Below are positions 14,166-59,965 of a stretch of 64,000 nucleotides of DNA, piece by piece. The position numbers and the translations under genes are program-made. How positions within the stretch are numbered: the first letter of the stretch is position 1; every line of letters starts with the position of its first letter. The DNA is from Symbiodinium sp. CCMP2592 (taxonomy: Eukaryota > Sar > Dinophyceae > Suessiales > Symbiodiniaceae), in assembly GCA_905221615.1 (NCBI GenBank), contig CAJNDT010003513.1:62001-126000 (forward strand), given 5' to 3'. Below the pieces are notes generated by a model. The model was not told where the DNA came from. It did no database searches and saw nothing but the letters and a program-made list of their open reading frames with translations.

Positions 14166-14994
14166 GAGGACGCACATCAGTCTGCATGCCGGGAACTCTC
14201 GACGGGAACAGGCAACTGATTCGAGGTCAACCCTCAACGGCACACGCCTGGAATTGATGGAATTGATGCGCAACAGTGCTCCGACTGAAAAGTGCTGAGG
14301 TTGGTTTGTTTGGAATGAAGATCATACAGCGTCTCATGATGTCTCATGCATTGTTCTTCGCACATCTTGTGCCCCCTTCGCTTCGCGGCTCTGGTACATC
14401 CATGACAGTCTGAAAAGCACGACGAAGTCGAAACCTTGATTAGTAAGTAGCTTGCATGTTTGAGCCCCCAGCCCCCCCCCGCCTTACAATTATGCTCTCA
14501 CAGACAATGGCACGGCGCAACAGATCTGCACATGGGAATTGCTTAGGCATGTTTTCCTTTGAAGTCGTTCGTCGCTAGAAGCTTGACTTCGCCAAGCCTC
14601 ACTTGGTGATCCCATGAAAACTGACACTGGGACACCTGCATTATCTGCGAACGGTCGTAGAATTCCGCAAGTCAGTAAAAAACACCCCACACCGTTCGCT
14701 GCGCTTTGTGCTGCTATCTTTGAGCAGCTCTTGCAGGATCCGTCGTAGTCCGCATCCAAGCGCTCAAGAAGCCGGTCAACTCCCGAATGTCCCGTGCCGG
14801 CCAAAGGCCATGGCCTCGATCTGATCACCAACAAATTAAAGAAGTTCGGAAATGCTGAATAAGAATCACACTGTCCAACACAAGGCTGCACAGGAGTGAC
14901 ATGCTTGACTTGCCTTCCGTTGCTCGTCGGCTCGCTCCGACAGAACGGCTACGCCAACCACCCACACACCTCCGCTCATGCGGGGTTGCCAGGG
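14166..14994. other. No recognisable gene
   Basis: A minus-strand open stretch (14,490-14,891) shows no family resemblance. The only other mark is a C-run at 14,471-14,479. Confidence 0.35.
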
Positions 14995-15975
14995 TGTTGG
15001 GGTGGTTGGGGTGTGTGATGGTGCGTGGGTGTGTGGATGTGCGGGTGTGTGGGTTGCGGGCGCGTGGGTGTGTGATGGCGTGTGATGGTGTGTGATGGTG
15101 TGTGATGGTGTGTGATGGTCTGTGATGGTCTGTGATGGTGTGTGATGGTGGATGGTCTGTGATGGTGTGTGGGTGTGTGGGTGTGGGTGTGTGGGTGTGT
15201 GATGGTGTGTGGGTGCGTGATGGTGTGTGGGTGTGTGATGGTGTGTGATGGGTGTGGGTGTGTGATGGTGTGTGGTTGTGTGAGTGTGTGGGTGTGTGGG
15301 TGCGTGGGCGTGTGGGTGCGTGGGTGCGTGGGTGTGTGGGTGTCTGGGTGTCTGGGTGTGTGGGTGTGTGGGTGTCTGGGTGTGTGGGTGTGTGGGTGTG
15401 GGGGTGTGGGGGTGTGGGGGTGTGGGGGTGTGGTGTGGGGGTGTGTGGGTGTGGGGGCGTGTGGGTGTGTGATGGTGTGTGATGGTGTGTGATGATCCGT
15501 GATGGTCTGTGATGGTGTGTGCAGGTGGATGGTCTGTGATGGTGTGTGGGTGCGTGGGTCTCTGATGGTGTGTGGGTGTGTGATGGTGTGTGGGTGTGTG
15601 ATGGTGTGTGTGCGCGTGTGATGGTGTGTGGGTGTGTGATGGGTGTGGGTGTGTGATGGTGTGTGGGTGTGTGGGTGTGTGGGTGTGTGGGTGTGTGGGT
15701 GCGTGGGTGCGTGGGTGTGTGGGGGTGTGGGTGTGTGGGTGTGGTGGTGTGGGGGTGTGGGGGTGTGGGGGTGTGGGGGTGTGGGGGTGTGGGGGTGTGG
15801 GGGTGTGGGGGTGTGGGGGTGTGGGGGTGTGGTGTGTGGGTGTGGTGTGGGGGTGTGGGGGTGTGGGGGTGTGGGGGCGTGGGGGTGTGGGGGGTGTGGG
15901 GGTGTGGGGGTGTCGGGGGTGTGGGGGTGTGGGGGGGTGTGGGGGTGTGGGGGTTTGGGGGGGTGTGGGGGTGTA
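14995..15975. repeat. G/T-only minisatellite (GTGTGTGGG / GTGTGATG units)
   Basis: For about 980 bp the plus strand is nearly pure G and T with scattered A. It is built from GGTGTGTG, TGATGGTG and, toward the 3' end, GGGGGTGT units. The unit composition changes along the array, from GTGTGATG-rich to GGGGGTGT-rich, as in a drifting minisatellite. The strong strand bias and G-runs make quadruplex structures possible. Long open frames on both strands (poly His-Thr-Pro or Gly-Val-Cys) are repeat artefacts. Confidence 0.95.
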
Positions 15976-16098
15976 TAAACCTTAGCACTGCACGAACCAT
16001 AGTTGGATTCGATAAAGCTTGTACAAAAGAAGCTGCCAAGAACAAAATTGACAAACTCCGCCAGAAGTGTTGCCAACCAGATCGGTCAGGCCTGCAGA

Positions 16099-16242
16099 AA
16101 CTTCTGAAACCTCAACGGATCGCAAGCAAGCACCATCTTCCAGCCGCCAGTAGCAGATCCTGCCATCTCGCCCACCGCTCACGGCGAAGCCTGCACTGGG
16201 CAAGTCACGAGTGCACACCAACGCACGGCAACGAAGCTGCAA
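16099..16242 (-). CDS. Probable exon: WD40 repeat, 3'-most of the EF-hand/WD40 gene
   Basis: The minus frame reads FAVSGGRDGRICYWRLEDG, a clear WD40 blade (GGRDGRI..W), flanked by RALVCTRDLPSAG and LRSVEVSEVSAGLTDLV. WD40 blades form beta-propellers that serve as protein-interaction platforms. The other blades of probably the same gene are at 23.8-26.4 kb on the same strand, with the LINE at 17.9-22.8 kb between them. Edges are approximate. Confidence 0.6.
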
Positions 16243-16569
16243 GATCATGCACTTCGAGGAACTGTTGTGAAGTTTGTTCAGCTGCTGCCGTTTGAGCTGT
16301 TGTCGACTGGGGATAGAATAGATACCAGCAGCAATGCCACGCAAGGAGCAGATCCGACAGCTAGCGCCTTTCACGAAAGTATTATCACTACACTCTTGCA
16401 TGCAACATGCTTTGGCAACTCCATTTTGCTTCAAGCCTTTGCCGAAATGAAGGTTCTTGTTGGACTTGAGGGCCGCAGGCACGGAGAACGAAAGCTCGGC
16501 GGTAGTTTCGTCCGGTGCGGCGCGGCTGGTCAGGGGACTTTTATCCGCGGGAAGACAGTCGCCGCAATA

Positions 16570-16645
16570 TAATAGTAGTAGTAGTCGTCGTCGTCGTAGT
16601 TGTAGTTGTAGTTGTAGTTGTACCCGTAGCCGTAGCCGTAGCCGT

Positions 16646-16677
<32 letters not shown>

Positions 16678-16730
16678 TAGTAGTAGTAGCAGCGGTAGTA
16701 GCAGTCGTAGTGGTAGTAATAGTAGTAGTC

Positions 16731-16761
<31 letters not shown>

Positions 16762-16800
16762 CAGTAGTAGTAGCAGCGGTAGTAGGAGTAAGAGTAGCCG
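16570..16800. repeat. (GTA/GTC)n trinucleotide array
   Basis: A plus-strand run of GTA with GTC, GTT, GCC and GCA variants. It has the opposite orientation to the TAC array at 16,929. Confidence 0.95.
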
Positions 16801-16928
16801 CTAGCCGGCTCCCGTGAGCTGGTTTTAAAGCACCAAGAAGTCCAGGGTTCCTACTATTTTGAAGGAGCCCGGCCATTACTATGTACTACTTGAGAGGGCG
16901 GCGGACTACCATTGCTGCTTTTCAAGGG

Positions 16929-17024
16929 CGGGTACTACTACTACTACCACCACCACGACTACGACTACGACTACGACTACTGCTACTGCTACTGCTACTG
17001 CTACTGCTGCTGCTGCTGCTGCTG

Positions 17025-17078
<54 letters not shown>
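16929..17078. repeat. (TAC/TGC)n trinucleotide array
   Basis: A run of CTA/CCA/CGA/CTG triplets ending in a pure (CTA) stretch. It is the reverse complement of the GTA array 130 bp upstream, so the two could pair as a long imperfect stem. Confidence 0.95.
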
Positions 17079-17476
17079 TTCAATTGAACGCTGCGCGAGC
17101 GTGCTCTGCGCTTTGCGGGCGCCTTTGGTCCCGTGCACTCGTGAAACTGGTTATCTGCAAGCATTCATCGCTCAAAGTCCTCTCAAACTACTCAGTTGAC
17201 TAATGTTGCTTCTATGGCTTCCTCCTCCGTCACCTTGGTGTGAACAGACGCGTCCATCTGTGCACCTGTCCCAGCAATTAGGTCGTACTTCGTATGAAGC
17301 CGGCGCCTAGAGTATCCGTCTTGTGGCGTCCCACACGGATTACTCATGCTAGAGACAGAAGGCCGTAAGGGTCACGTGTGCGTACCTGCAGAGCTGAATG
17401 AATCAAACTGCTGACTGACCATATCGGCTCAGGCGAAGTGCAGTGACCTGCATTTTGCCTTGGCCAGCACGCTGCT

Positions 17477-17853: not shown

Positions 17854-18216
17854 TTAGCCCTGAGGGCCGAGGTTGGGCCGGAATGCATCGCCTGAAGCGA
17901 TGATGCTAACGAATTCGTTGCAAGAAAAGCATGTAGACGTTTGGGAAAGTGATTGAACCAAGGCCGCTGAGGCCCTCTCCGGAAGCTTGTAGTCGTCGCA
18001 AATCCACACCTGAGATCTCGCATCCGCGGGGTCCTCTGGCCAGAAGGCTCGGTAGTGCCCGGACGCTAGGGAGTCCCCAAAGTGGGCAACTCCCGCCAGG
18101 ACTTGGTAGGATCGTTGGGCAGTGTGCTCGCTGGATGTCCACACGGACACCATGGCACGGCCGGTCCAGGCGCACGGCTGGGTATTCTTGACCCCGTCTT
18201 GCCATCGGCAAATCAC
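17854..18216 (-). pseudogene. USP-like domain, C-terminal half (His and Asp boxes)
   Basis: This frame carries the second half of the protease. AHFGDSLASGHYRAFW (His about position 54, near 18,057) matches the USP His box (G-x-x-x-x-GHYxA), and WICDDYKLPE supplies the final Asp box. It is offset from the 18,222-21,731 frame by what looks like a one-base change near 18,225-18,240: the preceding frame ends TAA right after RWYGPQNS, while this frame reads PELLTVVICRWQ across the same place. The frame closes at 17,854. With the Cys box upstream the catalytic triad is complete at sequence level. Confidence 0.7.
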
Positions 18217-18221
18217 AACAG

Positions 18222-21200
18222 TTAGGAGTTCTGGGGCCCATACCAGCGCTCGACTAAAAGTTTGCGATTCCCAGAATCTTCTATAGGCAGGCTTGGAGAG
18301 ACAGAGGTCCCGTCGGAAGGGGAAGGAGAAGAGGACTGACTCCCATCCGACTCCTCAACGATTCCCCCAGTACGACCCTGCCACTGAGTGTGCTGAAGGG
18401 ATCCCATGGGCTTTTGCTGCAGATGGTGAAGAAATTCTGAGACATCGTGTTGCCTGCCATCCAGTCGCCAACCGGCAATGGCATGGCGAAATTCAAACAG
18501 GCCGAACAAGTTCAGAAGTCTGGGGGCACTCTCATCCCCGAGATGGCATAAGACAGATTGAAAAGCACCCAGATCATACCCAAAGCTCGATACTTGAAGC
18601 AAGGCCTGGAAGAGAGCGTTAGCGTAGCAGGAGTTTGCCGTGTTAGACAGTACACGTTTGTGTAAGCCTGTAGGCTGTGGCTCTGTGTTCCTGGGGGCCT
18701 GCGTCACAGACTCCTGGTTCGAGTCTGTTGTAGGATGACGAGCTGACGAGTTGGAGGCTGTGCCATTCGACCTAGGTCTAAAAAAGCTAGCCAACGACTT
18801 TGTCTGAGGCTTGGGAGGCGGGGCGACGGGATCGACGTCCGCGTCATGCTGCCCTCGCAGCCACTGCGTGCTTACCTGATAGAGCACCGGACACTGCTCC
18901 GGATGCAGTCTGCGGTCATAGACCTTGTAGCCACAGAAGGGACATGAGTGGCCCTTGGCTAACTGGGGCGAGTAGCCCTGACAGATATTGACAGCCCGCC
19001 TGTGTAGGCGTGACCAGTCCTTAGGATGCGCCTGACGAAAGTGCGACTTGACTTTGGTGTGGTCAAAAGTCCAGAAGTCACACGTTAAGCACCGAGGATT
19101 AAGGACCTTGGAATCCGCAGTCCTCGAGAGCTCCGCGATGCTGTGTTGTGGGAGCAGAGCAATGTCCTGTCTCAGCTGGAAGAGAGTCCTAATATCGGGA
19201 TGGCTGGACTGTTTGTCTGCTTCTTTTAGTGAACGTAGCTTCTGAGGTTCCGGACATGCCCCCGAAAGCAAGTGGTCACGTAGGCCTTTCCATTGATGGA
19301 ATTTACGCTTACATGCCGCACATTGCGGCATCCCATCCACAGCGTGGAGCTTTCTATCGAAGCTTGAAGGCACAAAGCGGTCAATGCTCGCCGGATGAAC
19401 CCTCGACTTATGCAAATGTAGTCCATTTGCTGTCTCAAATGAAGCCGCGCAGAGCGTGCACTCGTATGAGGTTACCGGATGTTCCTCGGGCTCAGGGAGT
19501 TGTGACAGGACCAACAGCTTATCTCGGATAACCTGCAGAACCGAGGGGTCTGTCGTGATGTCCGGGCTTTGCACTGCTCGTCGCTCCAGTTTGCGAAGCC
19601 GCTTCCTTAGCTTGGACTGCAGTGCGTGGACAGGGTCCTGGATGTTGTAGAGCTGGAAGAGATCCTTAGTGGTGATCCGAGTGGTGTGAGCCGGCAGGTT
19701 CAGCACCGATCGTACCTTGTAGGCGTGCCAGCTGCGAAGCTGTTTGGCCGACTCTTCGCTTAAACCGACGTCAGATAGGCCAGTCGTCAAGGTGCTCAGG
19801 ACAGTACTCTGCCACACCTTAAGGCGCGACATGGTACTTGCATATCTGCGGTTGTAGACGAATTGGCGAACTTGATGTAACTTTTGCTTCGCCTCCCCCA
19901 TCCGAAAATGCAGAGTCTGCAACTCGAAGTGGTTGTAGGAGATCATAACTCCTAAGTACTTGCTTGAGGAGACCCACTGGAAGGCAGGGAACGACTTGTT
20001 GGGCCCGATGCGCCACCCTCTGACCGGCTCTCCTTTAGGGTTGGTAATCCAGCAGCTGTGTTTGTTCATCACATTTTGTGCTTCTCTACCTGCCAGCTTT
20101 ACCAGAATGACGCACTTGCCGATGTTGACTCTGAGTCGATGTTTCCGGACCTCCTCCAACAGGGCAGCTATAAGTGCATGGATGGCCTTGAGGTCCTTCT
20201 CAGAACGAATAGTCCTATGAAGCATCAGGTCATCGGCATAGCCCGTCAAAAACTTCAGAACCTGTTCAGCACCGAACAGATCCACCATAGACCGGAAGAG
20301 GTCACCTGTGAGGAACGAGAATAGGGTGGGAGCGAGCTTACATCCTTGTTTAATGCCTGCTCTGGTTTCGATAGAAGTGGAATCGCCTTGGGCATGTAAG
20401 ACATATCTGGATCCGTCATGGGGAGCTTGAACGAGGTGGACTGTGTCCTGATCGGCTCCCTCACTCTGAAGGAGACGGATAATCTCTTGGCGAGAGACTG
20501 TGTCAAACGCCTGGCTTAGGTCTAAAGCAAAGGTCAGACCGCCTACTAGAGATGGCACCTGTGTGCCTTGCTGTATAGCATATCTCGTAGGATGAGCCTG
20601 CTCCAACAAAGACCGAGCCTCCCGCAGATGGCACACGACTCGTTCCAGCGCATCTGAAAGCCCACGACCAGGAAGGTAGGCAAACTGTGGCATGTGTTTT
20701 AGGAACGAGAGAGTCAGGGGTTGTAGCGCCTCTCTGGCCGCTCCAGCCAGTCCTTTAGCATCCGGTCTCAAAATGCCCAAAGGACGCAAGTTTGCTGGCT
20801 TGTCCGAAGGCTTGCCCGGTTTGGGGACTAGACACAGATCGGCGTCGATGAGATCAGATTCTAGTCCATCCTCTACTTGTTTAGCAGCCACATGTCGGGA
20901 AAGGACCGGTGCAATGACGTCACTGCAAAGTCTCCAAATGGCAGCAGGTGCAGCTCCGTCAGGCACAGCTTTATTAGGCTTGATGGAATGAATGTGAGCG
21001 GCTAATTTGGATGACTCCAAAACCGGAAAAGCTCCAGTCATTGGCCTCAGCGGGGGGTGAGCCGCGAAAACCTGGTTCGCGTACTCCCTGAGTGCCGCAA
21101 GCTCCTGCGCTGGGCCTAGAAGATGTCCTGTGCTGTCCTTGAGCTGAGCCCGACGCGCCGGCTGCCAAGGCTGCAGCTTTTTAAGGGTTTGAAACGAAAT

Positions 21201-21731
21201 ATGTTGGTCGCCCTCCGCTATGCTGGCGTCAACTTCCGCTATGAAACCCGCTATTCTGTCCTTTTTTGCTTGCTTCACAGCTTGTCTGTGCGCAACTTGC
21301 GCCAGCTCCACCTCAGTTTCCGGTTGAGGGAGTGTGTTCAACCCAGGAGGCTGTGCCATTGGTTGATGAGGCTCGATCAGCTGTGCTGAGGGAGCTGTGC
21401 TGTCTACCCTGCAAAGGGTCCTGGCCCTCCACATACGTCGAGTCTCGGATTCGAGCGGGATCAGTCGTCTTTTGGGGAGTTTGGGGAAGAAACGTTCTGC
21501 ACCCTCCAGCAGCAGTGCATTCCAATCCGAAGGGTCCTGACAGGACTCCATTCTGGATGCTACCCAACTATGCAGTGCCTTGGCTGCGTCGTCCTCCTCA
21601 CGGACGGCGGCCTGAAGAGCTAAGGAATCATAACGGCGTGTGCTTCCCTTGTGCGGTGGGAGTAACCAGTGGTGCTGGAGGGGGATTTCGGCCTTAATTG
21701 GGTAGTGCCCTCCCTTCTTCCAGCTACCCAA
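18222..21731 (-). CDS. Reverse transcriptase - zinc finger - USP-like fusion protein of the LINE
   Basis: An open frame of 1,169 codons from a nominal TTG. The true protein starts further upstream in the endonuclease, so this start is arbitrary. The beginning (GSWKKGGHYPI) is the end of the endonuclease domain. RT motifs: FALDLSQAFDTV (first catalytic D, residue about 404), AGIKQGCKLAPTLFSF (about 458-473) and GYADDLMLH (Y498-A-D-D). Zinc-finger motifs follow at C758/C761/H774/H779, C804/C807/H820/C826, C881/C884/H897/H902 and C930/C933/H943/C947. TKSLASFFRP (about 977-986) resembles a PCNA-binding PIP box. LSNTANSCYANALFQALL (Cys about 1035) is the Cys box of ubiquitin-specific proteases, and QHDVSEFLHHL (about 1094-1104) is the second USP motif. 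RT copies the element RNA at the nicked target. A USP would remove ubiquitin, presumably from the element's own proteins or nearby chromatin (inference). The continuous frame shows a true fusion. Confidence 0.85.
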   Translation of the reverse strand: MGSWKKGGHYPIKAEIPLQHHWLLPPHKGSTRRYDSLALQAAVREEDDAAKALHSWVASRMESCQDPSDWNALLLEGAERFFPKLPKRRLIPLESETRRMWRARTLCRVDSTAPSAQLIEPHQPMAQPPGLNTLPQPETEVELAQVAHRQAVKQAKKDRIAGFIAEVDASIAEGDQHISFQTLKKLQPWQPARRAQLKDSTGHLLGPAQELAALREYANQVFAAHPPLRPMTGAFPVLESSKLAAHIHSIKPNKAVPDGAAPAAIWRLCSDVIAPVLSRHVAAKQVEDGLESDLIDADLCLVPKPGKPSDKPANLRPLGILRPDAKGLAGAAREALQPLTLSFLKHMPQFAYLPGRGLSDALERVVCHLREARSLLEQAHPTRYAIQQGTQVPSLVGGLTFALDLSQAFDTVSRQEIIRLLQSEGADQDTVHLVQAPHDGSRYVLHAQGDSTSIETRAGIKQGCKLAPTLFSFLTGDLFRSMVDLFGAEQVLKFLTGYADDLMLHRTIRSEKDLKAIHALIAALLEEVRKHRLRVNIGKCVILVKLAGREAQNVMNKHSCWITNPKGEPVRGWRIGPNKSFPAFQWVSSSKYLGVMISYNHFELQTLHFRMGEAKQKLHQVRQFVYNRRYASTMSRLKVWQSTVLSTLTTGLSDVGLSEESAKQLRSWHAYKVRSVLNLPAHTTRITTKDLFQLYNIQDPVHALQSKLRKRLRKLERRAVQSPDITTDPSVLQVIRDKLLVLSQLPEPEEHPVTSYECTLCAASFETANGLHLHKSRVHPASIDRFVPSSFDRKLHAVDGMPQCAACKRKFHQWKGLRDHLLSGACPEPQKLRSLKEADKQSSHPDIRTLFQLRQDIALLPQHSIAELSRTADSKVLNPRCLTCDFWTFDHTKVKSHFRQAHPKDWSRLHRRAVNICQGYSPQLAKGHSCPFCGYKVYDRRLHPEQCPVLYQVSTQWLRGQHDADVDPVAPPPKPQTKSLASFFRPRSNGTASNSSARHPTTDSNQESVTQAPRNTEPQPTGLHKRVLSNTANSCYANALFQALLQVSSFGYDLGAFQSVLCHLGDESAPRLLNLFGLFEFRHAIAGWRLDGRQHDVSEFLHHLQQKPMGSLQHTQWQGRTGGIVEESDGSQSSSPSPSDGTSVSPSLPIEDSGNRKLLVERWYGPQNS

Positions 21732-21785: not shown

Positions 21786-22778
21786 CTAAGTAAGGACAAA
21801 ATCGATTTGCGACTCCACGCCACCTTGAGCAAAGGTGGCAATGTTGTCACAGTGCCAGGTATTAACAGTGCCAGGTATTAAGGGCCACCAATCGCAACCT
21901 TAGCAGCAGATTGGACAAGTGGGATTCGTCAGGACGATCCTCCGTGGGCTGCTTCACGTGTGTACCCACCAATGGAGGGCACGACCGCAGGGAGGTATTA
22001 AAGTCGCCTGCCACGACTAGAGAATCCCGCTTGGGCACCTGCTTGACCACCTTAGACATGACTGACAGTACATAAGCACGGTCGTCCTTGTTAGACTGGA
22101 TGGACTTGGCCGAGGACCAAGCATGTTGATACACAGCAACAATGACCAGCCTAGTACCTGCCATGTCTGCACGAGCTTCAAGGACCCTGCCTGGACTCCA
22201 CTCCTTCCAGCGAAGGCTCTTGGCTGTAAACTTGGGTGAGAAGAGAATCATGACGCCATCCGCCCGGGTCGTGGATGGTGCCGCTTTCGGTTCCTGCCTA
22301 GTCTTGCGCTTCGCACCCTGCTTCTGCTGGGTGTGGTGCTACGTTTGGCAGACTCCGAGGCCGAAGAGATGCAATGCCAACCTGAAACACTGAACTCGCT
22401 AGTCTCCGTCCAGTGCGTCTCCTGTAGGATAAGGACGTCGCAGTGGTGGGAGGCTTCAGCCGCCAGCCACGTTTGTAGTTCTCCCCATTGCTGTTGACCT
22501 AGGTGCCCCGCGTTCCAAGAGACTACCCGAATGGATCTTTCTAGCCGTCCTGCCCTGCGGGAGGCTGTGCCATATGCAGGGGAGCCGTCAGTCTGTGACT
22601 GTAGCTCTCTTCTAGTGGGTGGGGGCCGGACCCCCAGCTGGTTTACCAGGGTGGGTGTCAGGACCTGCCCGCGGTATGGCACGGGCCCGTCACTTCGTAC
22701 TGTCCGTCTACATGCTGTCTTGAACGAATTCTTGCGAAGAGATGCAAAGTTTTGTGAGTGCACTGGTAGTTGCGCCAT
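21786..22778 (-). pseudogene. LINE endonuclease domain (EEP fold), broken
   Basis: Two frames together give an AP-endonuclease-like domain. IRVVSWNAGHLGQQQW (N of the first motif) and VLILQETHWTET (catalytic E) lie in the frame 22,248-22,778. VIVAVYQHAWS, SLVVAGDFNTSLRSCPP (D-x-N) and NTWHC lie in 21,862-22,251. The final SQIDFVLT lies in the frame leading into the RT protein. Damage: a frame change near 22,270-22,340; an exact 16-bp tandem duplication (21,849-21,864 and 21,865-21,880) that shifts the frame; and a TAG at 21,786-21,788. The nuclease normally nicks target DNA to prime reverse transcription. Confidence 0.8.
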
Positions 22779-22800
22779 CCGCTACTTTCGTCAAGAGACA

Positions 22801-52827: not shown

Positions 52828-55800
52828 TTATCTCAGATTTGGATCCAGGTTTGGATCATAGGCTCGAGCGTAGACGTTCGGATGTGGCTCATCCGGGTCT
52901 GAGTGATCTTCTTCGGAACTTGAATAAATTCCGAGTAGTCTGTTCTCAGCCCTGGTGAAGGCGGCGTCTGCAGTATCATATCCATGGTTGGATGTTGTCG
53001 CCTTTGGCTCGGCCTTTGGCGCAGCTTGTGAGCTGACTGGAGTTGCCTTGGCTTTAGCCGGTTGTGGCTGCTTAGCCTTTGCCCGTTCAGCCCTTCTTCT
53101 TTCAAGCTGTCCGTCTGAGGACGCCCATGATCTTTCACTTTCATCTCCTGAAGGAGATAAGGCGTGGGCATAAAGGCTATTCCAGTACTGTGCTGCAGAA
53201 GGAGTTAGGACTTCTTCATTGTCAGATTCTGACTGGTCTTCCTCAGAGCTTTGGTCGTCAAAGAGTGTCTCGAGGACATTTTTGAGATTGTTATTTCTTC
53301 GCTCTATCTCTAGTGAGGAATGGACCAATTGGTTAAAGACTGTCCTTGAGTCCTTCAGTGCTGTTAGAAGGATTTCCACTCTGGATAGAGTATCTTGGAT
53401 GGTGTCAAGATGTTCCTTCCTTTCCTCCTTGTCTCTCTGGATAGAGCTTCGCAATGATTGTGCGATTCTGAGGAGGTCTGTGTATTTCGTAAGAGGCATA
53501 GTTACCGTTTGATTGTCATGTATGACAGTTGTTTCGTCGCCGCTTAAGTTCCTGAATAGGACTTCCACGACTGGTAGAAACTCCGTGCTCCACGGTTCCT
53601 CTTCATCATATGTTTCTACGTGCTGTAGCACGCGTTGTGTAAACTGATCGGCTGCTTCTACCGTTGCATCGATAGAGCTGACGTGTCTTGCTGCCATGTT
53701 TCGGCACGTAATGTTAATTGCCTGGCCTTGATTGGCTTCGTTAAGTGCAGCGTCTGCATAGGTGCAGAGTCCACTGTTGTGGGCTTCTCTGGCTGCCTTT
53801 CGTTGAATGCGCCGATTTTGACCTCCTCTTCTGGTAGGACCTTTTGGTCTCGGAGGATCTGAAGGTACTGTTCCTTTCGCCTTTGGCGGAGGACTCTTAG
53901 GTGGAGGTGACATGTTTGCCTTGTTAGGCACTGGTGGCATTGCCTTGGGCGCTGACGACGATGCGGCACTTGAGAGTGCAGATGTACCTTTGGCTTTTGC
54001 CGAGGATCCCTTGGGGATCGATGTATAGGTAATCTGCATGGCTTCTTCGGCCATTTGTGCATGCAATGCATCTTTGAATAATTGCGTCATATGAGGAGTG
54101 GTACTTGCATCATCGTAGGTCTGGAAGCGCTCAATGTCTCTTTCGGTGCCACGTGGACGTGTATCACCTCTTTGAAAAGGATCGTTCCTGCGAATCTCCG
54201 CAACTTGTACTGCATGGAGGCAGTTTTTGCACAGCACCTTCCTGCAAACATCTCTTGCTTGCTTGAGCTGGTAACAGCTGTCTGAGAGATGGTAGACTTC
54301 GCTTCGGGAAGTATGCCAGATAGGTCGCAGATCAGTTGTTTCTCCGGAATTGACCCTGTTGGGTCCTAAAGGTTCACGCGTCTGCGGTTCATCCTCGGGT
54401 TCGAGGAATGGAACTCTTTGGTTCGCTGCTGCTTTTGATTTTGGTTGTTGGCGCTCCATACATCTGATAGGAGGCCTGGTAATCTGCTTCCACATCCAGT
54501 GTAAGCCCATTAGCAGCAGAAACACATTCCACGCGATGCTGAAGACGGAGAAGTCCTGCTCACTGGTTAGTGAGTTTGGAAGTGAAGTTTCATCAGTCTT
54601 GATAGACTCTGCGTTCGCTCCACCTTGGTTGCGGTGTCCGAACCAGCCCGACAACCCCGCTGCTGTAGCAGCTGTTCTGAGTGCCTTGCCGCTCGGAGCA
54701 GACGGTGGACGCGATGCCTTCCTTCTTCTCCTCCGGCTGGAGGATTCGTCCTCTTGTTCCTCTTCATCTCTCTGAGCAGACATCAAGTTTGATGTTTCTC
54801 TTTCGTGTTCTTCGATGTCACTTTTTGTTGGTGACGGTTCCTCTTCTAGTCCATCCAGCTCTTCCAAAGACATGTTGAGCTTGTCAACAATATTGGTTCT
54901 TTGAGGCCTGGACCTTGATCTTGGTAGATCTTGTTGTGAAGAGGACGATGATTCCTGGTTCCTTCTTGGAGGAGGACCTTCAGGCTCGCTGGGACGTTCA
55001 GGCTGTGGCCATTCCCAGAATCTTCCGTATCTGTGATGGCTACCTGATGGTTGCGATCTGTCGTACCAGCTGTTGCCGGATGAGTAAACGAATGAATCTT
55101 TGTAACCCCAGTATTCAGCATTACGCTGCTTGAAAGCCTTTCGCTTGTCAGCGATCTTCTGAACCTGGGCATCTGACCGGTTGTGTTTCCCTTTTGTAAG
55201 GATTGGTTGTATCGTGAAGCCCAAAGGGCTGTGCCAATCTTTGTCAGAGGGACTCAACCATAGGTCAAGGTTAGAAAAAGTTGAATAGTACTGCTTGACT
55301 GAGACAAACAGACGGATATCAATATCCCTGTTATTGTTCATGTCCTGCCACATATCTGAGATTCGCTCCCAGTATGTTCTTTCGGCGGCAGGTGTAACAT
55401 CTCTTGGACTAGGTGACGCCGTGTGCGGCGTTTTACTCCAGTCAAGGATATAACTGTTGATACAGTCAAGGTCAGCAACTTTCTTCGCCGGGTCCGCCGG
55501 TAGACGATCTGCACGTGCCAGTCTGTGCTGGTCGGAGTTGTTCAAGCAAAGATGTCGCACTTGTGAGTGCCTTCCTGCTATTTTGTTGAATGCTGCAAGT
55601 TTCTTCTCCAGGTATAGAGAAAACAAACTGTTTCGCGGGTGAACGTCTCCACCTTTTAAGGTGAGCCTCGACGCAATATTATTGAGATCTCCCGCTATTA
55701 CATCCGGTTTAAAAGGGAGAATCTCGTTGAGGAACGCGTTCACCAGTTCGCGTCTCTGTTCTTCCTTATGAGTCATGTATGAGTTGAAATGGACGATCGC

Positions 55801-56185
55801 GATGGTGATGACCTTGTAAGGCCCTTTTGTACACCACATCTCGTCAAGATCGTTCGATGCTTCTTGTGAGAAGATCTCTGCGTATGACTCAAAGTCTTCC
55901 TCTGGTGGCTCATCACCCTCGACATGGCCGTTCCATTCACAGAGAACCGGCGAGGGGTCGAGGTTCGACAGTGTCAGGCACGCCTCTGGTGAGAGGTAAG
56001 AGCCATCAGTGGGTCCATCCTTGTCAGGATTTTTGCCCTTGAGTGGGTCATATCCGATAATCTGCATGAACTCGTCTCTCGTCATCCTTTGGCCAGAATA
56101 TGGGTGGACCCATTCTTTTGCCTCTGGATGGTACTGTGGTACCCAAAGGTGAGGCGGCATACCGCACCGTGGCATGCCCACAGTC
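52828..56185 (-). CDS. Accessory frame 4: EEP-like nuclease C-half, TM segment, zinc-like motif, coiled coil
   Basis: 1,117 codons are open from an ATG at 56,181; the real entry is probably by frame change from the preceding frame near 56,185. The first 250 residues complete a nuclease-like domain: VITIAIVHFNSYM (H131, N133), KPDVIAGDLNNIA (D165, N167) and VADLDCINSYILDWS, matching the D-x-N and late Asp motifs of endonuclease/exonuclease/phosphatase proteins. Then come a low-complexity R/S/E stretch (400-500), a hydrophobic segment DFSVFSIAWNVFLLLMGLHW (543-563, likely membrane-spanning), VYHLSDSCYQL...CKNC (H631, C636, C651, C654), P/A/K-rich linkers, a helical stretch (895-975) and an acidic tail with SDPDEPHP. 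No intron signs. The whole looks like a retroelement-encoded accessory protein; its role is unknown. Confidence 0.6.
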
Positions 56186-57885
56186 GCTTCTTGGGACCAC
56201 CATTCTTAGGCTTCATTGTTCGATGACGGTAAAAGTGGTGGACGAGAGCGATGTCTGTTGTTGGGTCACCCTTGACTCCAATATACATCGAGGGTGCCTC
56301 AGGCTCCTTGGGAGGAGAATGGATTAGCATCCCCCTGTATTCATGTTGTCGCATGGTTGCGATCGAATACTCTGACGCAAGTGCTCCTGCCTCGAGTACG
56401 AGGGTAATATGAGCTGAATTGTTGAAGCACATGTCAATAAGAGGGTGATAATCGAATCCCTTCTCAGGTTTGAGCTTCTTTTTGGGATTCCCTGCGGGCA
56501 CCGGCGCTCGATCCATATTTCCCCAGTTGAATACCACTAGGTTTAGCGATACGCTGTCTGGGTTTGAGCCTTCAATGTATTCTCTCTTCTCGTTAACACC
56601 GGCCATCCTATTGCGAACTATCTCGTAATGTGCGTCGAGCACCAGTTTGTCTTCGTAGCCAGTAAGAGAGAGAAAAGAAGCCGGGTGGCTTGTTCTAGAG
56701 TCCTTGATATTGATGTGACTCTTGTTAATGCTCTTGTATTCCTCCAGGGTTGGAGCCTCTGTGGAGCTGTCATACGTATTCGGAGGATTGTTCCTAATAT
56801 CATCAAGGCTGCATGGATCAACGCCTGGATGGTCCTTCTCGAACAGATTTCTTGCGTGGTCGCAATACATGTTGATTTTCTGGACTGCCAAATCTACGTC
56901 CTCATGTGTGAGGATGGCCTCGTATAAAAACTGACGCTCTTCTGAGGTCATTCCTGCTGACACTTTAGAGGTCTCGAGGCAATCGATTGGCAAGACGCAC
57001 TCGCACATCCGTTGTTTACCCTGTGGGGTAAGTCGACAGTCTGCACATACAATCGTACCACAGGAATAGCAAAAATAGCCTGTAGGCTGTTTGCAGAGAT
57101 CGCAGAGAGGATTGTCTGGTCGAGGCAACATCCGTATCCTTTGGTTAAGGCTCATGGCTGTCCTGCGTACTCCTACAAATCTCTCCTTGGTAGGAGGTGC
57201 AGAGGAGGAAGATGCCGACTCTCTGGGTCTGTCCCACTCCTCTTCGTCAGGAGCCTCAGAATCTTTGATCATGAGTGGACTTCGGATTTTTCGATTCCAT
57301 CGACTAACCCAGATTCTCTCTTGCATTTCCTGTTGCATAGCCGGGTTAGACGATGACTTCGAGATTCGGTGCTTGCGATTTTCTCGAATTCGAGCGCTGA
57401 TGCGCTCATGTTCTCTTACGAGGTCTTCCTCATCAGCAGGCTCCTCGTATTCGAGGTTGAGCTTGCTTCTGTTGACTCGATAATAAGTTTCTGTTTCAGG
57501 ATCGAAGAGAACTAGGAATTTTTCCTTCTCCTTTTTAGGAGATTTTGGTTTCCTTGGCTCTTCGTCTGAACTCTGAACATATTCTGTTTCAGGCTTTGGT
57601 TGGTCAAGTTTGACCTTCTCAAGTTTCTCTGTGATCTCTTCCGTGGGAGATTCTTTCTTCTCCTCTGACGCTGCAGGTGCAGAGTTCGTCTTGTGAGACG
57701 GATTAACATCAACTCGGAGTTCTGAGGATGACGAAGATTTTGAGCTCTTTTCGCTCTTTTCGCTCTTTTCGCTTGATGCCGACTCAACGTCTGATTCTTC
57801 GTCACAATCCTGGTTAGGATCTGGTTCCTCAGGTTCCGTCTCTGTTCCAGAAGATTCTTCCTTGGGAGGAACTACGTTGGTTGGC
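56082..57885 (-). CDS. Accessory frame 3: acidic leader, cysteine cluster, EEP-like nuclease N-half
   Basis: The frame is open from about 57,885; the first ATG is only at 57,338. Upstream of it the frame reads EESSGTETEPEEPDPNQD, SEKSEKSEKSSKSSSSSE and ETETYYRVNRSKLNLEYEEP, so the ATG is probably internal. After the ATG: a cysteine cluster PLCDLCKQPTGYFCYSCG then TIVCADC (C79, C82, C90, C93, C98, C101; later C112, C114), resembling B-box or ZnF-type binding. Then LNLVVFNWGNMDRAP (N271, N274) and ITLVLEAGALAS (E316), which look like the first two motifs of an endonuclease/exonuclease/phosphatase domain. The remaining motifs are in the next frame, entered near 56,185 (codon about 384). Confidence 0.55.
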
Positions 57886-59090
57886 AGAAGTATCCTGAAC
57901 AGGTTCTGGAGGTTTGTGACCTGTCGTTATCTTAAGAACTTCAGTGGCGCTTCTGGTGCCGTCGGAGTTCCAGAGCTGTCCCATAAGACTGTCCGGATCC
58001 TTGTCTGCCTCGGCCTGCCGGGCGAGCTTGGATCTCGGATGGATGTCCTTTGTAGTAGTCTCCGTTTTCGGAGGTACCTCACCTGCAGAAGCGGTTTGCT
58101 CCAGGTTTGGAGCTGTGTCAGCCTCTGTATTTGGCAGAAAGAAAGACTTCTTGTGAGAAGATCTAGCCTTGGGAGGCTCTGGAGGCAGATTTCGCTTTGA
58201 CACCTTCCGAAGTGTCGATTCGATCTCTTGGCCGTAATTTGCGCACCATTTCTTCGACTCGTAAGTCGCTGACGGCATCTGTTCGGAGCAGTGGTCTGCC
58301 CACCATGGTCCGATGCTCTTGAGCTCATCGTATTGCGATGATACCCAGAGTGGTTCAGAGGGTGCGAATACGGCGCTAAGAGTACGGGCATGCACTACCT
58401 CTGGTGTAGCAAACATCCCTGCTTGCGACTGCCACATGTTTGTGACTTCGTTCACTACGTTATTTGCGTCGAATACTAGAAGCAGTGCCTTGTTGGCACG
58501 CAACATGGTCGGATTAGGATTCGCCAGGTCTAGCGTTGAAAACTGAACAGTGTCCCTGTTGGAACGACTGTTTTCATTCACGAGAGCTTGAAGACCTGGT
58601 GATGTAACCACCTGCGATAGGAGGTTTGATGGTACCAGACCGTGCCTCAGGATTGAGGATAATGCCTGTAGGTCCGTGGCATGCATGATGTAACAAGGGT
58701 TGTTCTGTCGAACAAAATCCTCCATGCCTACGGGTCTCGGCGCGTTAGTGGAGAGACGCTGTGCACGGGACTGCACTGGATTGCTGCCCGTTGCCATGAA
58801 GTCTGAGATGGTCATGTGTGACCTTGGCCTCTCTTCTTCAGGATCTGGTTCTTCAACTCTTGGTAGAGTTCGTCGTGAACCGTGTCCTCCCACTGCCGAG
58901 AGGAAAACTTTGGTCATGGTCAGCACATTTGCATCCGGTGGGATGGTAACGGCGGCATCTGTGGTTTCGGCCTTGCCATCTTGGTTATAAACCATAGTGA
59001 CCACGAACCTGGACTTAGTGTTGAGGAGGACACCAAGCGCGATCTCTTGCTGTATACTGCATCGGCCAACTTGAACATGTCCAGAAGATA
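57829..59090 (-). CDS. Accessory frame 2: Tpt1/ADP-ribosyltransferase-like C-lobe
   Basis: The nominal frame is 59,196-57,829 (455 codons), but continuity with the previous frame suggests entry near 59,070. After IALGVLLNTKSRFVVTMVYN and an acidic linker it reads NPCYIMHATDLQALSSILRH then GLVPS (residues 167-190). This matches the H-G-T-x-x-x-x-W-x-x-I-L-x-x-G-L signature that opens the catalytic lobe of Tpt1/KptA 2'-phosphotransferases and related ADP-ribosyltransferases. NKALLLVFDANNVVNEVTNM (236-255) fits the following strand. Tpt1 removes the 2'-phosphate left by tRNA ligation using NAD+; some relatives ADP-ribosylate nucleic-acid ends. The tail is acidic and leaves frame near 57,880. Confidence 0.5.
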
Positions 59091-59741
59091 ATTGTGTTGG
59101 CCAGCAAAGAGATCTGGGCGCTGGTTCTGAAGGTGTCTTGTTGAGTGTGCCAACCACCTTCCGACTCTGTTGGTCTTGGAAAGAATGTGGAAGCACATCT
59201 CTGGTGAGAGACCTGTTACCTCTGCCAGTCTTGGCACTGAGGAGGAATAGTCATATTCTCCGGATGCATCAAGACTCACACATTGTTTTACCTCCGGTGG
59301 GAGGCCTGTCTGAAGGTGATGTGCAAGCATCGTACAAAACTGGCGTGGATCACGAGCGTGATTACCCACGTTGTTATCCCAGTATACAAGGGGACTGTTG
59401 TCCCATGGTCCTTGAAGGACTCCTTCGTAGAGCCTGACTCCATGTCTGGAGATTGGAGTGAGCCTTGCTCGACTCGCATGGCCACATCGTGAGATCAGTT
59501 CAGCAAGATCTCTTGGATGCGGATTGAACACCTGTTGGTGACCCATGTAAATGTATGGAGGCTCGTGATTTTTCTCACGTTTGTGAAATCGGTGTCCACC
59601 GTGTTCGGTGTGTCGACGTGATGCTTCCCGACGAGACTCGGGGTACGAGCTATCCATGTGTGGATGTCGCTCATGGTACGCCTGTACTGCCCTGGGTAGG
59701 GCGTGTCCATCACGGCTACGGAAGTTTGATCGTGTGCTCAT
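59050..59741 (-). CDS. Accessory frame 1: leader and Tpt1-like N-lobe
   Basis: The ATG at 59,741 begins MSTRSNFRSRDGHALPRAV. An H/R-rich leader follows, then FCTMLAHHLQTGLPPEVKQC, VSLDASGEYDYSSSVPRLAE and MCFHILSKTNRVGRWLA (residues 135-200). This order (L-x-x-x-L-x-x-G, D-x-x-G, L, then I-x-x-x-N-R-x-G-R-x-L) follows the winged-helix N-lobe of Tpt1 proteins (LRH, DG-V, V-x-x-x-D-K-x-R-F). The Arg of the LRH catalytic motif is replaced (HHLQTG), so activity is doubtful. The frame changes to frame 2 near AVYSK at about 59,070. Start chosen as the first ATG after the pol stop. Confidence 0.5.
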
Positions 59742-59965
59742 TACGGCACGATGACCAAACAGGATCAGGAATGCTTGGTTAGCTCAAAAGGCTGATTGCT
59801 GTGAGGCTCGAGGCTGAAAGCGGCTGCGGATGATACAGAACATATAGTTCTCATGAACATGTCCGATCTTGATGAAAACGCAGCCTGCAGACACAAATTT
59901 TCTTTTAGACGGAAAACAGTCTAAATAGAAAATCCAGCACATGGTTGTGCTACCAGCAAACAAGA
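59742..59965. other. Spacer between pol and accessory frames
   Basis: 224 bp with no long frame except a 63-codon overlap of pol in another frame (59,975-59,784). An A/T-rich ATTTTCTATTTAGACTG stretch (minus) is present. Could hold an internal promoter, ribosome re-entry site or the pol 3' end. Confidence 0.35.

Follow-up and report, generated by a model that had tools for sequence, protein, structure and literature searches.

The window analysed here is a stretch of 64,000 nucleotides from the dinoflagellate Symbiodinium sp. CCMP2592 (assembly GCA_905221615.1, contig CAJNDT010003513.1, positions 62,001 to 126,000). On its minus strand lies a single copy of a long interspersed nuclear element (LINE) whose coding sequence runs from an endonuclease through a reverse transcriptase (RT) and zinc fingers into a region resembling a ubiquitin-specific protease (USP). 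Comparison with 77 related proteins (tblastn) placed the copy in four pieces, at 22,781-22,353, 22,314-21,868, 21,866-18,354 and 18,276-17,941. The main open frame extends from 21,785 to 18,222 on the minus strand and encodes the pre-RT region, the RT, the zinc fingers and the N-terminal half of the USP, with 59% identity across 1,167 amino acids to the nearest relative, a protein designated P0001. An earlier note, made from the letters of this DNA, had described one long uninterrupted frame of 1,169 codons; this is the number counted from 21,731, and from stop to stop the frame has 1,187. The RT domain (residues 321-614, converted to coordinates 19,944-20,825) carries the GYADDLMLH motif pointed out in that note and matches Pfam RVT_1 with an E value of 2.9e-21. 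The zinc fingers (about residues 773-966; 18,888-19,469) gave weak matches in Pfam. When aligned with P0001, the Cys/His sets of all four fingers counted by the earlier note are present in the window frame, and they are invariant across 13 aligned relatives.

Upstream of the main frame, the endonuclease is spread over further frames as far as 22,781 (tblastn). The N-terminal part of the protein and the first part of the apurinic (AP)-type endonuclease occupy a frame of their own at 22,248-22,781 on the minus strand, in which residues 2-136 of the relative P0017 match 22,781-22,353. The second endonuclease part lies in another frame (21,862-22,338), in which residues 105-253 of P0001 match 22,314-21,868 with 65% identity. 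By Pfam Exo_endo_phos alone, these two parts had E values of 0.083 and 0.1, respectively. The end of the endonuclease is found in the main frame at 21,786-21,866, where the P0001 match starts at 21,866, and is closed by a stop seen in the translation directly ahead of the long open frame. The earlier note was correct about the content of the frame, but the element is longer than it had stated. Because of the frame changes, two in the endonuclease and one inside the USP, and of the in-frame stop, we consider the window copy decayed and dead. No relic of a spliced leader was found in the window at up to 3 mismatches.

The frame change inside the USP divides the domain into two halves, as the earlier note had described. 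The N-half (18,366-18,659) contains the Cys box, with the catalytic Cys codon at 18,629-18,627, and the Q-x-D-x-x-E-F box (QHDVSEF) in the main frame, and the C-half (17,941-18,276) contains the His box SGHYRAFW, with the His codon at 18,057-18,055, and the Asp pair of CDDY (17,997-17,992) in the frame 18,354-17,854. All the catalytic codons (Cys, His and Asp) as well as the Gln box thus remain in the copy, split over two frames. Pfam UCH gave an E value of 0.1 for the N-half alone (profile positions 3-27) and of 0.0094 for the C-half alone (148-220), both under the curated cut-off, and Pfam alone on these sequences is too weak for a decision. A search of the PDB with the N-half alone returned nothing significant, with USP35 at an E value of 1. 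On the other hand, a profile of 256 positions, built without P0001 on 15 USP domains taken from further element proteins, matched the N-half with 72.0 bits (positions 6-105) and the C-half with 76.4 bits (positions 138-239) in the right order, while the best of 500 shuffled sequences per half reached 5.6 and 6.3 bits, respectively. Among 5.8 billion proteins searched, P0001 was the sole one found with the N-half (63% identical across 66% of the query length, E value 1.1e-32), and the C-half has 40% identity to P0001 over 113 amino acids (residues 1460-1572, tblastn). A possible last USP strand, NVYMLFLQR, is tentatively placed at 17,915-17,941 in a third frame (17,906-18,253), where it scored -1.9 bits at profile positions 245-253.

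In P0001 (1,585 amino acids), endonuclease, RT, zinc fingers and USP are all in one frame. With P0001 as the query, at least 77 proteins including itself were recovered among the best 8,000 word-sharing candidates scored; the relative P0069 as the query gave 11 proteins, 10 of them new, for a pool of 87 relatives. The earlier note had reasoned that sister copies ending before the Cys box would point to a chance fusion with a host gene. In 40 of the 87 relatives, the frame instead runs on through a USP domain that is complete, covering at least 200 of the 239 profile positions; another 11 have a partial domain and 36 have no USP match. The 40 comprise 29 proteins with both endonuclease and RT and 11 with RT, and the proteins with endonuclease, RT and USP are 1,534-2,714 amino acids long. 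Precomputed domain listings also place PF00443, PF00078 and PF03372 together in P0002, an entry with 104 member sequences, and in others. The presence of PF03372 and PF00078 puts an AP endonuclease and an RT in one protein, as for an AP endonuclease (APE)-type LINE, and the closest entries in the PDB to the RT of P0001 are the RNA-directed DNA polymerase 8c8j and LINE-1 ORF2p (E value about 2e-11). The window element belongs, as a decayed copy, to an old APE-type LINE family in symbiodiniacean dinoflagellates, in which a single large protein has the order endonuclease, RT, four zinc fingers and compact USP. The finding is a family, not one odd copy, and is bigger than the earlier reader could see. 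The frame break inside the domain can be cited for a chance fusion between this single copy and a USP gene of the host. Such a fusion is ruled out by the relatives that carry this order within a single frame and by the congruent RT and USP trees described below, and we give it practically no weight.

The named relatives agree with the dinoflagellate distribution that the earlier note had proposed to look for. Those with USP similarity come from coral-symbiont algae. Partial USP similarity was found in P0024 and P0026 (Symbiodinium microadriaticum) and in P0021 (Symbiodinium sp. CCMP2456), and a complete USP in P0084 (Cladocopium goreaui). The remaining named relatives are also from Symbiodinium, except P0077, a weak match to a frog RT without USP. 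The element proteins P0021 and P0025 bear the misleading name RXLR78 in public Symbiodinium annotation. Of the 40 complete-USP relatives, 18 are deep lineages, such as P0050, P0062, P0063 and P0080, in which 282-527 residues separate the last zinc-finger match from the USP; whole-protein scans of these four found no Pfam domain above the cut-off in that stretch.

To define the class of the domain, we compared selected element domains with Pfam and, as the cellular comparison set, with the structures in the PDB. Pfam UCH (PF00443) matched 16 of 16 selected domains at E values of 0.01 or less (best 5.4e-13), and six of ten proteins scanned whole (P0002, P0031, P0034, P0042, P0050 and P0063) passed the curated cut-off; NCBIfam matched none of the 16 domains. 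Of the profile searches named in the earlier note, RVT_1 was thus strong on the window copy itself, while UCH was weak on its separate halves and was found in every domain selected from the relatives. Among solved structures, the sequence profile matched USP46 with an E value of 2.6e-17, and USP46 and USP12 were nearest, about 14 bits ahead of the next, with USP1 further down. Structure prediction, in which absence of a USP fold was to count against the domain according to the earlier note, gave a predicted USP fold, with USP30, USP46 and USP12 tied by structure and USP18 with ISG15 also among the matches. The element domain shares the fold and the Cys, Gln, His and Asp boxes with the solved USP12, USP46 and USP30, but is only 18-21% identical to them and about 240 amino acids long. 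The stretch from the Gln box to the RF strand, the place of the fingers subdomain that is usual but not obligatory in USPs, takes up 58 profile positions, about half the 113 residues of USP46, and has 0-5 Cys, none of them conserved. Together with the 29 relatives carrying the whole order in one frame, these results make it nearly certain that the family consists of LINEs with a true USP domain, as the earlier note had suggested for this copy.

Among the 40 complete domains, the catalytic Cys and His are each kept in 39, Asp or Asn in 37 and Gln in 37, and the element USP is predicted to be an active deubiquitinase, ubiquitin being the expected substrate from the USP family. P0067, in which Cys, His and Gln are lost, has a dead USP domain in an otherwise similar protein. 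It could exemplify a domain that does not cleave and serves for ubiquitin binding or protein docking, but the retention of Cys and His in all but one of the complete domains makes this very improbable for the family.

Several observations weigh against the explanation favoured here, a LINE family with an active USP that acts as proposed below. Besides the loss in P0067, Glu takes the place of Asp in P0083 and P0084. When scanned whole, P0030, P0033, P0062 and P0080 missed the UCH cut-off, and P0001 scored 21.7 bits against the 23.9 bits required. Of the 36 relatives without a USP match, 24 end before the region at the end of the zinc fingers and 12 reach it; six of these have 16-134 residues left and six have 198-403. 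Because these 12 relatives reach that region without a match, six of them with the longer remainder, a few lineages may do without a USP. In the RT tree, many but not all of the relatives without a match are fragments that fall within USP-bearing groups. Furthermore, USP was less conserved than RT in eight of eight protein pairs, by 0.04-0.19 in identity, and scans of viral and genome contigs confirmed no DNA of other copies from which purifying selection could be measured at the codon level.

Outside the USP-bearing branches, P0041 and P0043 from Symbiodinium natans form a paired lineage with 281-324 residues past the zinc fingers and no USP match. Loss, replacement or a USP-free branch are possible origins of this lineage.

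The RT and the USP share joint descent. Their distances are correlated at 0.89 among 32 proteins and at 0.80 among 21 less similar ones, values not attained in any of 2,000 permutations. At a support of at least 0.9, 11 of the 12 nodes in the USP tree recur in the RT tree with no conflicts; with no support limit, 18 of 28 nodes are common to both trees and 9 RT nodes conflict. Between P0001 and P0002, identity is 0.61 in the endonuclease, 0.57 in the RT, 0.53 in the zinc fingers and 0.45 in the USP, against 0.19 in the linker, and seven other pairs have 0.29-0.67 in the USP and 0.00-0.22 in the linker. From a tree sampled without a USP-free outgroup near the root, the simplest reading is that the USP was captured once, long ago, and has since been inherited vertically. 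The conserved USP in one family suggests that elements of this kind captured a deubiquitinase, apparently once, and that the active site was held over a long divergence.

Symbiodiniaceae LINEs are described as old and highly diverged, and they fill 74-171 Mb of Symbiodinium genomes (PMC8045281). Some of the USP genes counted in Symbiodinium genomes may be element proteins. The word ubiquitin is absent from the main text of PMC8045281 and of the review PMC11453091. A LINE with a ubiquitin-pathway protease is already known. The non-LTR retrotransposons NeSL and Utopia, like the window family, carry in their LINE protein a cysteine protease that belongs to the ubiquitin/SUMO pathway, but theirs is Ulp1-like, N-terminal in nematode members, and accompanied by a restriction-like endonuclease (PMC4640811). 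The window family, with a C-terminal USP (peptidase C19) and an AP-type endonuclease, falls outside NeSL/Utopia. SymbioLINE-Dnmt from Symbiodinium (PMC5890265) resembles it in the kind of host, in Exo_endo_phos with RVT_1 and in having an accessory domain, which in SymbioLINE-Dnmt is under purifying selection. There, however, ORF1 holds this domain and it is a cytosine methyltransferase; the main text of that paper makes no mention of ubiquitin, UCH, PF00443, protease or peptidase. Upstream of the decayed window copy, no minus-strand open reading frame above 200 amino acids was found between 22,782 and 32,000, frames there not having been scanned for a DNA methyltransferase. Among other mobile elements, Ginger1 transposases with a C-terminal OTU or Ulp1 domain have a deubiquitinase or related protease, and a Trichomonas protein joining transposase_11 to a peptidase C19 has the C19 type itself, but both belong to DNA transposons without RT (PMC2836005). 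Helentrons have an AP endonuclease and a deubiquitinase-type protease, but they are rolling-circle elements with an OTU protease and an additional ORF (PMC4067079). In the literature searched, judged by titles and the starts of abstracts among the best 2-25 papers per search and with most subscription journals and bioRxiv outside the search, no paper was found to describe a LINE with a USP, and the USP class thus appears unreported for LINEs there. The OTU proteases in LINEs that the earlier note mentions were not seen in a paper in the same literature.

What would such a domain do? The earlier note had suggested two possible functions, protection of the element's proteins from removal by way of ubiquitin and editing of histone ubiquitin where the element integrates. 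We propose that the USP, tethered to a protein that would bind the element RNA and the target DNA, acts as a deubiquitinase on its own ribonucleoprotein because of this tethering. It would take ubiquitin off the ribonucleoprotein and close partners, and would so delay degradation of the RT by the proteasome sufficiently for target-primed reverse transcription to proceed. We regard this mechanism, which builds on the USP family and the tethering, as about equally likely to be right or wrong. How ubiquitin limits or serves retrotransposition becomes directly testable by mutating one cysteine.

Alternatively, the USP may act less on the element's own protein than on proteins of the host where the element inserts (a ubiquitinated clamp, histones or repair proteins). 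It would then aid synthesis of the second strand or conceal the nick from the repair machinery. The domain shares one protein with the endonuclease and the zinc fingers, and its nearest solved relatives by profile, USP46 and USP12, together with the lower-ranking USP1, are related nuclear USPs in animals. For the OTU and Ulp1 domains of Ginger transposases, a function in post-transposition repair has been proposed (PMC2836005). The profile rank is no proof of substrate, however, and USP30 is tied with USP46 and USP12 by structure. Dinoflagellates use few histones to package their DNA, which makes ubiquitin on histones less probable as the target. We consider action on host targets unlikely, though worth keeping in view. 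The data here do not separate it from protection of the element protein, which we find somewhat more likely. Slightly less likely again is that deubiquitination of host factors at the nicked target by the C-terminal USP is an obligatory retrotransposition step in a deep LINE clade; if so, target-primed reverse transcription in host genomes would depend on the element's own deubiquitinase.

The substrate could also be another ubiquitin-like modifier, such as SUMO, NEDD8 or one of dinoflagellates. Ulp1 types are among the known LINE and transposon proteases (PMC4640811, PMC2836005), and SUMO is preferred by USPL1 (PMC8983731). Both sequence and fold group the element domain with USPs solved with ubiquitin, although USP18 with ISG15 matches as well, and we judge another modifier improbable. 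The position of the domain at the end of long single proteins would also suit a protease cutting the element's own polyprotein in the manner of a retroviral protease. Yet members of the USP fold cut after ubiquitin-like tails, and the motif L[RK]GG was absent from the seven relatives checked, which leaves self-processing slightly more improbable still.

Other features of the window lie on both sides of the element. A minus-strand open frame of 1,344 codons at 59,966-64,000 matches RVT_2 (copia-type RT, E value 1.9e-17) and runs past the window end. Downstream of it, four long overlapping minus-strand frames occupy 52,828-59,783; of the three scanned, one (56,082-57,926) contains a B-box zinc finger that scores slightly over the Pfam cut-off, and the other two have no Pfam match. 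At 14,825-17,203 there are long open stretches in several overlapping frames, and those read (15,982-17,203) consist mostly of low-complexity repeats.
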